56,561 bases of DNA. Origin: Candidatus Termititenax sp. Lineage in GTDB: Bacteria > Margulisbacteria > Riflemargulisbacteria > GWF2-35-9 > DYQY01. This document shows, piece after piece, positions 1,694-54,539 of this stretch (positions are counted from its first letter, which is position 1; each line of letters opens with the position of its first letter). A program made the position numbers and the translations under genes. Under the pieces are notes generated by a model that did no database searches, had not been told where the DNA came from, and saw only the letters and a program-made list of their open reading frames with translations. The DNA lies in the NCBI GenBank assembly GCA_020719045.1, contig DYQY01000010.1, positions 1-56,561 on the forward strand. Reading direction: 5' to 3'.

Positions 1694-3916
1694 TTAATTA
1701 ATACCAATTCCTAAAGCTACTCCAACAATAGGAGCATATTTAACTGTAAGACCTGCAAATACAATAGATACCATAGAAATAAGCTTAATTAGAATATTTA
1801 ATGATGGACCAGAAGTATCCTTGAATGGATCTCCAACAGTATCACCAGTAACAGCTGCTTTGTGATTTTCAGAACCTTTTCCACCTAAAGCACCAGTTTC
1901 AACATATTTTTTAGCATTATCCCAAGCACCACCTGCATTATTTAGCATAATAGCAAGTACAAATCCTGTTGAAAGACCACCAGCTAACATACCAATAACA
2001 CCTGCAACTCCAAGGAAAATACCCATAACTACTGGAACTATTAATGCAATTAGTGAAGGAAGCAACATTTCTCTTTGTGCGCCTTTGGTAGAAATTGCAA
2101 CGCAGACAGCATAATCTGGTTTTCCAGTACCTTCCATAATTCCAGCAATTTCTTTAAACTGTCTTCTAACTTCTTGAACCATAGCCTGAGCTGCTCTTCC
2201 TACTGCTTTCATTGTTAAAGCAGCAAATAAGAACGCTAACATTGAACCTATCATCATACCAATAAGTACTTTTGGGTTCATTAGATTAACATTGTAGTAA
2301 AGCATAAAATCAGCAAGTGTCGCTGCTGCAACATCTACAGCTTTATCACCAATCATAATTGATGTTTGACCAGCATGTACTAAACTAATTCTAATTTCTT
2401 CAATGTATGATGCAATTAAAGCAAGCGCTGTAAGTGCAGCAGATCCGATTGCAAAACCTTTACCAGTAGCAGCTGTTGTGTTGCCTAGTGAATCTAGAGC
2501 ATCAGTACGCTTTCTTACTTCATGTCCTAGTCCTGCCATTTCAGCATTTCCACCAGCGTTATCTGCGATAGGACCATAAGCATCAGTTGCTAATGTGATA
2601 CCTAATGTAGATAACATACCAACTGCTGCAATACCTATACCATATAGACCTAAAGTTGGGTCCATAAATCCACCTGCAAACCCGTAAGAAAATAAAATTG
2701 CTACAGAAATCGTAACAGCTGGAATCATAGTTGATTCCATACCAGTTGCAATACCAGCAATAATTAAAGTAGCTGGACCAGTTTGTGCTGCCTCAGCAAT
2801 CTTTCTAGTTGGCTGATAGTCATGAGAAGTAAAATACTCTGTTCCCTGACCAATAATAATACCAGCTAAAAGACCAGTAATGATTGACCAGAAAATCCCA
2901 AAATTGCCTGGTAATAACATGTTTACCAATATCGCACTGGAAATAATGATTAATACTGAACTTAGAAAAACACCACTATTAAGTGAAAGTAAAAGACTTT
3001 TTTGCGTAGCATTTTCTTTAGTTCTTACAAAATAAATCCCGATAATTGAAAAAACAATTCCTAATCCTGCAATAATCATTGGAAGAATTAGTGAATTAAG
3101 CTCAAGTGGAGTACCTCTAAAAGCAGCAACACCAAGAGCAGCTGTTGCAAGGATTGAACCACAATATGACTCATATAAGTCAGCACCCATACCAGCCACA
3201 TCACCAACATTATCACCTACATTGTCTGCAATAGTTGCAGGGTTTCTAGGATCATCTTCTGGAATTCCTGCTTCAACCTTACCAACTAAGTCAGCTCCTA
3301 CGTCAGCTGCTTTAGTGAAAATACCACCACCAACTCTAGCAAATAGCGCTTGTGTTGATGCCCCCATTCCGAATGTAAGCATAATAACTGTGATTGTAGC
3401 ATTATCCATAGTAGCACCAAAATATGGAGCTAATACTTTAAGGATAAGAAACCATAAACTTATATCTAGAAGTCCTAGACCAACAACTACCATACCCATA
3501 ACAGCACCTGCACGGAATGATACTTGTAATCCTTGGTTAAGTGACTTACTAGCTGCCCAAGCTGTTCTAGAAGAAGCATTGGTTGCTGTTTTCATACCAA
3601 GATAACCAGCTAAACCAGAAAAGAAACCTCCAGTTAAGAAAGCAAAAGGAACAATTTTATTCTGTACCCCTAAACCATAAGCCATTATTGCTAATATTAT
3701 TGTAGCTACTACAAAGAATATGAAAACAACTTTATATTGTTGTCTAAGGTAAGCCATAGCTCCATCTCTAACATATTGAGCTATTTCCTTCATCTTGTCT
3801 GTACCTTCTTCTTTGCTCATCAATGTTTTATAAAAGATGAAAGCAAAAAGAAGTGCTGTGATAGAGCCTAAAGGAGCAATCCACCAAAGCATCGGAATCT
3901 GAACTAAATTTTCCAT
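1694..3916 (-). CDS. hppA: Membrane-bound ion-pumping pyrophosphatase, K+-dependent type
   Basis: Couples hydrolysis of pyrophosphate to H+ or Na+ pumping across the inner membrane. The 740 residues contain about 16 hydrophobic spans. The substrate/metal motif [11 protein letters not shown] is at 205-215, followed by acidic [12 protein letters not shown], and a second acidic cluster ([15 protein letters not shown]) lies near the C-terminus. The [10 protein letters not shown] segment at 478-487 has Ala where K+-independent enzymes carry Lys, so I class it as K+-dependent (family knowledge). Whether it moves Na+, H+ or both cannot be read with certainty. The start has a purine-rich AGGGGG site. 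It is monocistronic between a terminator and a 97 bp spacer. Confidence 0.96.
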
Positions 3917-4013
3917 TTTTTCCCCCTTCGATTTTTTTTAGACTAAGTTTTTGTTACTTTAATCTAATTATATATTGAACCAAAGAAGATGTTTTCGGTC
4001 AACAACAAAGTGC

Positions 4014-4787
4014 TTAATAGATAAAGAATTCTTTAGTTGCTTTTGTGAGGTTAATAGAGCCAAATTTTGTAATTAAAACTGTGTCTTCAATTCTGAACCC
4101 ATACTCTCCGGGGAAATACAGTCCAGGCTCTATAGTAATCACCATTCCCTCAGATGGGCAAACATCTTTAGGACAGTCTTTGTTTACAAATGGAAATTCA
4201 TGAATATCTAGTCCGACACCATGGCCTAAACTATGCTGGAAATAATAATGAAGATTTCTTTTCTTAAAACAATCAACAACTTGCTCATGAATATCAGTAA
4301 AAGGCATACCTAATTCTAATGATTTAATTGCTTTTTTTTGGGCCTTTTTTACTAATTTGTACTTTTCATACATCTGTGAGGAATACTTACCACTTCCCTT
4401 ACTCATGTACACTACCCTAGAAAGATCTGAACAAAAACCTTTGTACTTGACCCCCATATCAAACTGTACAACATCACCTTCCCCAATAACTCTATCGGTT
4501 GGGGTACTATGAATAAATGATGAATTCGACCCAGAACCCACTATGGTTGGGAATGCTAGCTTCTTGTCAGCACCATACTGCTGAGAATAATCGTAAATCT
4601 TTTGAGCAATTTCTATCTCTGTAACACCAGGCTTAAGATCATTACCAATAACCTTTTCATAGATAAAACTAGTTAATTGACAAGCTTTATAGATATTATT
4701 GATTTCTTCTTTTGTCTTGATTTTTACGCTTTGTTTGTAGTGGTCTAAAAACCAATTTTTAAATTTGTACATATATTGCTGAGTCAT
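4014..4787 (-). CDS. M24-family metallopeptidase (Xaa-Pro aminopeptidase-like, catalytic domain only)
   Basis: Pita-bread-fold dinuclear metallopeptidase, probably removing an N-terminal residue before Pro. All five metal ligands are visible: D110 (VQFDMG), D121 (GFCSDLSR), H189 (LGHGVGLDIHE), E220 (TIEPG) and E234 (FRIEDT), plus the auxiliary H93. SDLSR and FRIED resemble aminopeptidase P/prolidase more than methionine aminopeptidase. At 257 residues it lacks the N-terminal creatinase domain of full-length PepP. It follows aroK on the same strand after a 56 bp gap that contains a direct repeat. Methionine aminopeptidase function is the main alternative. Confidence 0.85.
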   Translation of the reverse strand: MTQQYMYKFKNWFLDHYKQSVKIKTKEEINNIYKACQLTSFIYEKVIGNDLKPGVTEIEIAQKIYDYSQQYGADKKLAFPTIVGSGSNSSFIHSTPTDRVIGEGDVVQFDMGVKYKGFCSDLSRVVYMSKGSGKYSSQMYEKYKLVKKAQKKAIKSLELGMPFTDIHEQVVDCFKKRNLHYYFQHSLGHGVGLDIHEFPFVNKDCPKDVCPSEGMVITIEPGLYFPGEYGFRIEDTVLITKFGSINLTKATKEFFIY

Positions 4788-46489: not shown

Positions 46490-46565
46490 GATCCGCTAGC
46501 TCAGATGGTAGAGCACTTGACTTTTAATCAAGGTGTCCCGGGTTCGATTCCCGGGCGGGTCACCA
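46490..46565 (+). tRNA. tRNA-Lys (anticodon TTT)
   Basis: 76 nt including an encoded CCA. Acceptor stem GATCCGC/GCGGGTC, D arm GCTCAGATGGTAGAGC, anticodon stem-loop TTGACTTTTAATCAA with anticodon TTT, and T arm CCCGGGTTCGATTCCCGGG. This tRNA is a natural substrate for mnm5s2U34 modification, relevant to the radical SAM-methyltransferase fusion at 52.8 kb. Confidence 0.97.
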
Positions 46566-51776: not shown

Positions 51777-52533
51777 TCCTATAAGCTTCAGCGCATTGCT
51801 TAGAAGAGAGCTTATTAGGTTCTCTAGAATAATTAATCAAGCTATTCTGTCTCCAGTTTTCTCAAGCTTCCTATACTTACTGATATTTGGTGCAACTCTT
51901 GGCAGGCACATTAATTTACTTGAAAACATCTCTTATATTCAATTTATGGTTCCAGGCATAGTTGTAATGAATGTGATTACTGTTGCTTACTCTCATACCT
52001 CTTTTTCTCTATTTTACTCAAGATACACGAAGATGATTGAAAATGATTTAATAACACCAATAAGTAACTTTGAAAAAATACTAGCAAGCACTGTTGGCGC
52101 TCTTGTGGTAAGCGCAATTGTAGGATTTCTTATTTGCCTGCTTAGCTTATTTTTTTCACCTGTTGCTATTCATAACATTCCAATGTTTATATTCTTCTTT
52201 ATAGCAATTAGTGTTACTTTTTCTAGCTTTGGAATAATTGTTGCCTTAATGTCTGAACAATTTGAACATCTTTCTTTCTTTACTACCTACTTAATCACAC
52301 CACTAACCTTCCTAGGCGGTGTTTTCTATTCAATCAAGATGCTTCCAGAACAATTAGTTCTTTTTACCAAACTAAACCCATTTTTCTACATGGTTGATGG
52401 ATTTAGATGGGCTATGATAGGCTATTCTGAAGGAAGTTTAGCTCTTAGTATTTCGTTATCGTTAATATCCGCACTGTTTTTCTTCTTTTTAACCATCTGG
52501 TTATTTCATATCGGATATAAACTAAAACACTAA
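51766..52533 (+). CDS. ABC-2 type exporter permease
   Basis: 255 residues, six transmembrane helices, with FLYLLIFGATLGRHI near helix 1 and TPLTFLGGVFYSIKMLPEQL typical of ABC-2 permeases (YadH/DrrB-like). GTG start 7 bp after AAGGAG and inside the ATPase gene. Its stop overlaps by 4 bp the stop of the S4 gene on the other strand. It forms a dimeric channel energised by the preceding ATPase. Confidence 0.9.
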   Translation: MLVNPISFSALLRRELIRFSRIINQAILSPVFSSFLYLLIFGATLGRHINLLENISYIQFMVPGIVVMNVITVAYSHTSFSLFYSRYTKMIENDLITPISNFEKILASTVGALVVSAIVGFLICLLSLFFSPVAIHNIPMFIFFFIAISVTFSSFGIIVALMSEQFEHLSFFTTYLITPLTFLGGVFYSIKMLPEQLVLFTKLNPFFYMVDGFRWAMIGYSEGSLALSISLSLISALFFFFLTIWLFHIGYKLKH

Positions 52534-52733
52534 ATAACTAATATTTTTTTGCCATTAACTTCGACTGTATCAGTTGGTCTTATCTTATTCTTCTTCCTAG
52601 TTTCGATAGCACCATTTACTTTTACTAAGCCTTGCCCAATTGCAAACTTTGCCTCGCCACCAGACATAAACATTCCTGTAACTTTTAGAAGTTGATGTAA
52701 TTCTATATACTCTGTTTCTAACTCATAGTTCAT
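52530..52733 (-). CDS. S4-domain RNA-binding protein (YbcJ/YaaA/RqcP-like)
   Basis: 67 residues forming one S4 fold: YIELHQLLKVTGMFMSGGEA, AIGQGLVKVNGAIETRKKNK and IRPTDTVEVNGK. Such single-domain proteins bind rRNA or tRNA-containing ribosomal complexes; YbcJ and YaaA homologues are the nearest, RqcP the alternative. A TATATT box ends 6 bp before the ATG. It diverges from the radical SAM fusion gene; the two promoters share about 40 bp. Confidence 0.85.
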   Translation of the reverse strand: MNYELETEYIELHQLLKVTGMFMSGGEAKFAIGQGLVKVNGAIETRKKNKIRPTDTVEVNGKKILVI

Positions 52734-52745: not shown

Positions 52746-52811
52746 TCACATGTTTGCACTATTTGCTTATAATACTTGAAAAACATTTATCTTCTGTTAG
52801 TCTATTCTAAA

Positions 52812-54539
52812 ATGGACAAAAGAATTAACTTTTTCAAAGACTACTTAATAGAAAAATATGGTGAAGCACTGTATCGCATTCCAATCGACTTAAATGCAAG
52901 TTGCCCTAACCGTGACGAGTCTGGCAAGGGTGGGTGCAGTTTTTGCAGTGAGCATGGCGCGCGTGCTATGCAAACAATGAACTCAACAACTACTCAAGAA
53001 CAGATCACAGATGCTATTAAATTCGCAAAGAAAAGATATGGCGCAAAAAACTTTATGCTTTACGTTCAAGCCTTCACTGCTAGTTTCCAGCCTGAGAGTA
53101 TTTTAATATATAACAAACTGCTTTTAGACAATTTTAAAGCCGTTAGCTTTGGAACTAGACCAGACTGTTTAGGCAAAGAAGCATACTCGTATCTCAAGCA
53201 ACTTAGTGAAAAGATTGATGTGTGGGTTGAACTAGGAGTTCAGACTGTCCATGATAAAACGCTTAAACTTATTAACCGAGGACATAACTATAGATGTAGC
53301 AAAACTGCCATAAAGAAACTTAATAACATTGGCGTTAATGTAGCAGCTCATGTAATCTTAGGATTACCTGGTGAGTCAAATTCTGACATGATTAAAACAG
53401 CAAAGAAACTATCTAAGCTTCCTATAAAAGCTATAAAGATTCATAATTTACACGTATTAAAGAACACCAAAATGGGTGATGAGTTTCTTATAAAACCATT
53501 CCCTACCCTCAATGAATATGAATATACTGATATCTTAGTAGAATTCATTAGACATATTCGACCTGACATTAAAATAATCAGAATGACTACAGAATCACTA
53601 GCTGAAACAGTTATCGCTCCAACCTGGAAAATGAATAAAAGTCATTTTCGTGAATACATTATCAGAAAAATGGCTTTTGAAGATGCCTATCAAGGCGACA
53701 AACATACTAAAAGAACTCACAATGAATTACTGCCAGAAAAAAGCACCCTCGATGGTTCACTCACTATTTGGAGTGATGACTTCAAGGAACACTACCATGA
53801 TAAAGCTGGCGCGCTATTAGAAGCAAAGAAGAAATTTCTTGAGCAGGCCAATATCGACAAACTTCCTAAAGTAAAACTACTAGATATCTGTTTTGGTATG
53901 GGATATAACAGTCTCGTAACAATTGACTATGCGCTTGAAAACAATATTAACATCGATATCACTGCACTTGAGATAGATAAAAGAGTTGTTAAAACTGCCT
54001 CAGAATTACTAACTTATAATACTCATTTAAACTGGCAAAATTGCCTAAAAAGTATAGCTAAAAATGGCAATTACTTAAAAAGAAATGTAAAATTATCAGT
54101 GTTATGGGGAGATGCTAGACATCAGATATCAAAATTACCTGATAACTTCTTTGATGTTATCTACTTAGATGCATTTTCCTCCCAAAGAAACAGTGAGCTA
54201 TGGACCTTGGATTTCTTCCAAAAAATAAAAAAAGTCATAAAAAGTGACGGAGTACTACTTACTTATTCTTCTGCCATCCCAGTAAGACATGCCCTAGTTA
54301 CAGCAGGATTTTATGTTGGAGAAACTCCAGCTGTACAGAGGGAAAGAGGAAATACGATTGCATCATTAGATAAATCCAAAATATTATCCCCCTTACCAGA
54401 ATCAGATTTAGAACAATTTAAAACCACCAGAGGCATTGTTTATCGTGATCCTTTCAATGTTTGGCCAAACAAAGAAATCCTAAGACAAAGAGAATTTGCT
54501 ATTAAGGAGCAAAAAATAAAAAAGTTTGATATACTTTAA
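52812..54539 (+). CDS. Radical SAM (MnmL/YhcC type) fused to MnmD-type tRNA methyltransferase
   Basis: 575 residues. N-terminal half (1-290) is a TIGR01212 radical SAM protein with Cys31, Cys42, Cys45 (CPNRDESGKGGCSFC), FGTRPDCL and LGLPGES. After a linker comes a class I methyltransferase of the MnmC N-terminal (DUF752/MnmD) type: LLDICFGMGYNS (357-368), ALEID, and YLDAFSSQRNSELWT with TYSSAIPVRHALVTAGF. B. subtilis MnmL (YtqA) is the radical SAM enzyme of mnm5s2U34 synthesis, working with a separate methyltransferase (known). This chain would convert the wobble uridine to its methylaminomethyl form alone (inference). The ATG at 52812 is preferred over a TTG at 52776 that falls near the -10 box. 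Confidence 0.88.
   Translation: MDKRINFFKDYLIEKYGEALYRIPIDLNASCPNRDESGKGGCSFCSEHGARAMQTMNSTTTQEQITDAIKFAKKRYGAKNFMLYVQAFTASFQPESILIYNKLLLDNFKAVSFGTRPDCLGKEAYSYLKQLSEKIDVWVELGVQTVHDKTLKLINRGHNYRCSKTAIKKLNNIGVNVAAHVILGLPGESNSDMIKTAKKLSKLPIKAIKIHNLHVLKNTKMGDEFLIKPFPTLNEYEYTDILVEFIRHIRPDIKIIRMTTESLAETVIAPTWKMNKSHFREYIIRKMAFEDAYQGDKHTKRTHNELLPEKSTLDGSLTIWSDDFKEHYHDKAGALLEAKKKFLEQANIDKLPKVKLLDICFGMGYNSLVTIDYALENNINIDITALEIDKRVVKTASELLTYNTHLNWQNCLKSIAKNGNYLKRNVKLSVLWGDARHQISKLPDNFFDVIYLDAFSSQRNSELWTLDFFQKIKKVIKSDGVLLTYSSAIPVRHALVTAGFYVGETPAVQRERGNTIASLDKSKILSPLPESDLEQFKTTRGIVYRDPFNVWPNKEILRQREFAIKEQKIKKFDIL

Follow-up and report, generated by a model that had tools for sequence, protein, structure and literature searches.

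What does a single gene that joins a radical SAM domain to a methyltransferase do for the wobble uridine of tRNA? The question is raised by a reading frame in the stretch of Candidatus Termititenax DNA analysed here (the window, 56,561 nucleotides). According to two published accounts (PMC9976899; PMC9626948), MnmEG installs cmnm5U34; in E. coli the carboxymethyl group is then taken off by MnmC(o), and a methyl group is added by MnmC(m). The gene in the window (Table 1) probably encodes a bifunctional tRNA wobble-uridine enzyme, a counterpart of MnmC in which a radical SAM domain stands where MnmC has its FAD domain, converting cmnm5(s2)U34 to nm5(s2)U34 with the radical SAM half and then to mnm5(s2)U34 with the methyltransferase half. 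Its parts belong to known families, and the proposed combined function is that of MnmC.

Table 1. Position, strand and basis of the features of the fusion gene, and of the tRNA gene found in the same window (aa, residues of the fusion protein).
Feature	Position in window	Strand	Basis
Fusion gene, 575 aa: radical SAM TIGR01212 + MnmD/MnmC2-type methyltransferase	52812..54539	+	stop-free translation from ATG
Radical SAM domain, MnmL-like, aa 5-298	52824..53705	+	TIGR01212 257.9 bits; PF04055, PF16199
[4Fe-4S] cluster motif C31-X10-C42-X2-C45 (CX10CX2C)	52902..52946	+	sequence
Linker, about aa 299-310	53706..53741	+	gap between domain matches
Methyltransferase domain, MnmD/MnmC2 fold, aa 311-535	53742..54416	+	phmmer, NF033855 (sub-cut-off), Foldseek
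SAM-binding motif of the methyltransferase, aa 356-368, LLDICFGMGYNSL	53877..53915	+	sequence; strongly conserved
DAFSSQRN, aa 453-460, candidate active-site segment of the methyltransferase	54168..54191	+	sequence
tRNA-Lys(UUU) gene	46490..46565	+	

The initial annotation had described a complete TIGR01212 domain fused to a DUF752/MnmD-like methyltransferase, and both the domains and the details that it gave (coordinates, strand, C31/C42/C45, LLDICFGMG and DAFSSQRN) were confirmed. TIGR01212, which NCBIfam currently describes as 'tRNA modification radical SAM protein MnmL/YtqA', matched well above its cut-off of 180 bits and over model positions 2-300 of 302; within this half, a Pfam profile search placed Radical_SAM_C (PF16199) at aa 206-287. 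PF05430 matched aa 409-518 with 97.7 bits (cut-off 22). The MnmC2 equivalog domain NF033855 covered aa 321-516 with 114.6 bits, below its cut-off of 136, and five other MnmD proteins that we scanned (fused or stand-alone, including a stand-alone one from Arcobacter) were also below it, at 89.5-111.9 bits. MnmM (PF06962) was not among the Pfam matches of the fusion protein, and the FAD oxidase domain TIGR03197 was absent among the 25 NCBIfam matches listed for it. An alternative in-frame TTG start at position 52776 is possible and would add 12 aa; the ATG of a homologue from the same genus (L003) lies at the place matching the ATG of the fusion gene.

The methyltransferase half resembles MnmC2 from Aquifex (3vyw) by phmmer (E 8.3e-30), and the same structure was the best Foldseek match (E 2e-16) of a predicted model of the fusion (mean pLDDT 76.9, pTM 0.74; input alignment of five rows). 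Chains of Elp3, a radical SAM enzyme that acts on wobble uridine, were among the next matches, giving one match per half. Since the radical SAM half resembles Elp3 in both fold and sequence, the target of the fusion might be another C5 side chain or another position (by Elp3-like or other wobble chemistry, for example) and then carry out an N- or C-methylation. We regard this as quite improbable: TIGR01212 outscored ELP3 by more than 200 bits, no GNAT domain was found among the Pfam matches of the fusion protein, the methyltransferase half is MnmC2-like, and MnmE and MnmG are both present in the genome.

The motifs of both halves recur in other fusions. Of 40 fused ORFs, 35 matched a pattern for the cluster cysteines, the others being L004, which is cut before the motif, and L149-L152. 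Residues D453, F455, S456 and N460 of the DAFSSQRN segment are invariant in a 10-row alignment (A3); the spelling of the segment is variable, and the pattern was not matched in fusions L143-L145 and L149-L152. The L149-L152 subgroup, from the Kiritimatiellae class, is thus without the usual DAFSxQRN spelling, and two of its members (L149 and L151) have a shortened cluster motif, CX4CX2C.

The genome that contains the window is 99.06% complete and encodes the enzymes expected upstream of such a protein, as the initial annotation had proposed to check: profile searches detected MnmG with 853.1 bits and MnmE with 391.3 bits. The fusion gene accounts for its single PF05430 match and for its single TIGR01212 match over cut-off. 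Neither a separate MnmC with an oxidase domain over cut-off nor a separate MnmM, either of which the initial annotation had held to speak against its reading, was found. Searches for the two covered 74 Margulisbacteria genomes, the phylum of the window. The MnmC oxidase model TIGR03197 was over its cut-off in none of the 74, and the window's genome gave five sub-cut-off matches, of which the two listed span only model positions 1-35, the FAD-binding start. PF06962 had no match in the window's genome; it matched in 12 of the 74, in 7 of them over cut-off. Among the controls, PF06962 was detected in B. subtilis and L. lactis, and TIGR03197 was over cut-off in 2 of 14. The window also carries a gene for tRNA-Lys(UUU), a canonical substrate of the mnm5s2U34 pathway (PMC9976899).

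As a separate observation, several Margulisbacteria with a stand-alone MnmD and no TIGR01212 over cut-off encode a DAO-kind FAD protein of 330-360 aa with a sub-cut-off match to the MnmC oxidase (the observation concerns L194 (G024:C98) 303-989 and 3161-4162, L195 113-1189 and L196 151-1185). In G024 some 2 kb separate its gene from that of MnmD. This protein might be an MnmC(o)-like partner that stands alone.

The initial annotation had suggested looking for the same two-domain architecture elsewhere, and single-frame fusions were found in 49 of 676 genomes, belonging to three groups. Three are Margulisbacteria (3/74: the window's genome, G000, together with G028 and G032, the fusion of the last being cut by a contig start). 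A genome of the same genus has the same architecture in a protein 76% identical to that of the window, as does another family of the same order, with 51% identity and a cut by the contig end. Full-length fusions also came up in a contig scan, two of them from Kiritimatiellae MAGs and one from a MAG labelled Desulfobulbus propionicus (L058, L059 and L061). The order to which the Desulfobulbus MAG belongs has the fusion in 7 of 257 genomes. In the Kiritimatiellae class, to which the genome of L058 belongs, 69 of 345 genomes had a match at E 1e-24, which we sorted as follows: 39 are fusions (36 as a single match and 3 as two matches in one frame), 9 have both halves separate, 2 have the methyltransferase only, 13 have the radical SAM half only, and 6, left out of the 39, are partial, at contig ends or frameshifted. 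An assembly artefact or a broken frame joining two genes could be imagined for the window, which is one contig of a 31-contig assembly. The recurrence of the architecture in 49 genomes of three groups, with conserved motifs on both sides, excludes chance or misassembly, and leaves this explanation with a negligible probability.

The distribution of the unfused halves bears on the functional link between them. In the 300 Kiritimatiellae-class genomes without a fusion or a fragment, the counts for both halves, radical SAM only, methyltransferase only and neither were 9, 13, 2 and 276 (Fisher p 5e-10, uncorrected for relatedness). The Rosetta-stone link between MnmL and MnmD drawn in the initial annotation is strengthened by the nine genomes in which both halves are separate, and is weakened on another side, discussed below: belonging to TIGR01212 does not by itself make a protein MnmL. 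The partnership between MnmL-like proteins and MnmD is not universal, given these 13 genomes and 11 Margulisbacteria with MnmD and without TIGR01212 over cut-off. The genomes with a radical SAM half and no MnmD detected at E 1e-24 are G757-G759, G793, G800, G801, G803-G807, G818 and G823. Co-occurrence in Arcobacter, Helicobacteraceae and Bacteroidales was considered as further support and discounted, since their TIGR01212 copies have a YhcC-type motif.

Mobile elements were also surveyed. No relative was found in two scans of viral contigs. Matches were obtained in 33 plasmid and 20 phage records, but in none of them did a single place span 80% of the query; the listed ones concern the radical SAM half only. 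Four phage records (H16, H17, H19 and H20, labelled as Enterococcus, Staphylococcus and Listeria phages) carry stand-alone TIGR01212-like genes; these may not belong to the phages and may instead come from host DNA included in the records.

We then asked how the fusions are related to each other. A careful tree, built from 76 radical SAM domains, united the 40 fused domains and two unfused Kiritimatiellae copies in one clade (100/100), in which the seven fusions of the Desulfobulbus order were one branch (100/97) and the domain of the window nested among Kiritimatiellae fusions (93/84, not starred). In a larger and quicker tree (103 rows, SH-aLRT only), fused and unfused Kiritimatiellae copies stayed together in a clade of 59 rows (100). 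The methyltransferase trees were poorly resolved. Counts and trees were made after the removal of 22 duplicate loci, and L016 and L078 were skipped; L148, at a contig end, was left out of the methyltransferase trees, and the later trees, including the 103-row tree, were made without L170 and L171 (duplicates) and L192 (a 60-aa piece). The radical SAM trees include 30 of the 39 full Kiritimatiellae-class fusions.

The single clade of fused radical SAM domains suggests that the fusion arose once and spread laterally. The simplest reading is one fusion event, such lateral spread, and a separation of the halves again in some lineages later on; alternatively, the seven split-pair copies of G788-G796 may be older than the fusion. 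On balance we lean towards a broader picture in which a fused enzyme of single origin, present in three distant and probably anaerobic groups (Margulisbacteria, Kiritimatiellae and relatives of Desulfobulbus), replaces the flavin enzyme MnmC and employs SAM for two kinds of chemistry at a single nucleotide, a radical cleavage and then a methyl transfer. The fusion hosts are presumably anaerobes, and in an anaerobe a radical SAM enzyme would have the advantage over a flavin oxidase.

The ancestry of the radical SAM half is the point at which the main alternative has to be weighed. E. coli, which is known to have MnmC, also encodes YhcC (L153 3122-4051), and YhcC reaches 472.9 bits on TIGR01212. 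Membership in this family alone is consequently no proof of MnmL, and automatic MnmL names are doubtful in genomes with MnmC. It could follow that only the methyltransferase half of the fusion acts on nm5U34, while a YhcC-like radical SAM half does another reaction, perhaps on the same tRNA. The trees are compatible with this: the grouping of the fused clade with Bacilli MnmL had a support of 72 (not starred), and its grouping with YhcC and Campylobacterota was not rejected (p-AU 0.643). Moreover, a TIGR01212 paralogue encoded apart from the fusion is present in six of the seven fusion genomes of the Desulfobulbus order, which indicates that the family has more than one role. These paralogues fall in a different clade from the fusions in the 103-row tree, which counts against the YhcC-like reading. 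They are stand-alone proteins (L185-L190) with a CX7CX2C-type motif followed by [SAG]F.

Local sequence features point the other way. The residues G[SAG] follow CxxC in all 35 fused ORFs whose cluster was recognised by the script, a K stands four residues after a conserved AP-W in 39 of 40, and a C-terminal QG is found in 39 of 40. All three features, a signature noticed post hoc, are present in 15 of 15 Bacilli proteins, and YhcC has none of them, with SF instead of G[SAG], R instead of K and no QG; the QG is also present in the Desulfobulbus-order paralogues. By inspection, 11 of the 15 Bacilli loci adjoin an MnmM-like gene, one of which was confirmed by PF06962 (162.2 bits). The local features of the fused domain thus appear to side with YtqA, while the trees would accommodate either ancestry. 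Since, in addition, no other candidate for the conversion of cmnm5U to nm5U was found in the window's genome, we consider it unlikely that the radical SAM half is YhcC-like and does another reaction.

The architecture of the fusion, its motifs and folds, its pathway context, its recurrence and its single clade are all observed; the two reactions, the sequence in which one polypeptide would carry them out and the radical chemistry are what we infer, as follows. MnmE and MnmG would produce cmnm5(s2)U34, from which the N-terminal radical SAM domain would strip the carboxymethyl group to give nm5(s2)U34. The most plausible route would have the 5'-deoxyadenosyl radical abstract a hydrogen from the glycine-derived methylene, after which an imine would be formed by oxidation and then hydrolysed. 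With a second SAM, the MnmD-type domain at the C-terminus would go on to methylate nm5(s2)U34 to mnm5(s2)U34. If the broader picture given above is true, it would reveal a separate MnmL-MnmD route, fused or split, in which MnmL is paired with a methyltransferase other than MnmM. A methyltransferase covalently joined to the radical SAM domain names a candidate enzyme and gives an independent argument tying MnmL to position 34; it also offers one protein for assays of the two reactions and of any passing of the tRNA between them.

Compared with known systems, the fusion is closest in overall plan to E. coli MnmC: both are bifunctional single chains, for what would be the same two steps, and their methyltransferase halves are homologous (matches 3awi, 3ps9 and 2qy6). 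The fusion differs in having a radical SAM domain for the FAD oxidase and in the reversed domain order, with the methyltransferase at the C-terminus. With B. subtilis MnmL (YtqA) and MnmM (YtqB) it shares the replacement of the FAD oxidase by a TIGR01212 radical SAM protein, and it has local features in common with the Bacilli TIGR01212 proteins encoded beside MnmM-like genes. Unlike that pair, its methyltransferase is of the MnmD type (PF05430) and not MnmM (PF06962), and the two activities are fused rather than encoded by neighbouring genes; BLAST of the fusion protein against one Bacilli MnmM-like protein gave no similarity. The closest solved structure of its C-terminal half, Aquifex aeolicus MnmC2 (DUF752), is likewise a methyltransferase without a FAD domain, yet it stands alone. 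YhcC, a member of the same TIGR01212 family, is also a stand-alone protein.

The initial annotation had called the fusion a third way to build a bifunctional enzyme for this pathway. The two-domain architecture stands; its novelty is less certain. A 2024 report by Jaroch et al. (J Bacteriol), which other papers cite for ytqA/MnmL and which is said to have named MnmL, reportedly mentions fusion proteins in its abstract, so that the architecture may not be unreported. A literature search on titles and abstracts returned none on a radical SAM/MnmD fusion.

Around the gene itself, a promoter and terminator scan gave hits no more numerous than in shuffled sequences. The gene neighbourhoods of the window, L003 and L058 showed no common neighbours when compared, and hence provide no operon evidence. 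Directly upstream of the fusion gene, on the opposite strand (window 52530-52733, minus), lies an ORF of 67 aa, whose product we take to resemble a small S4-type RNA-binding protein.
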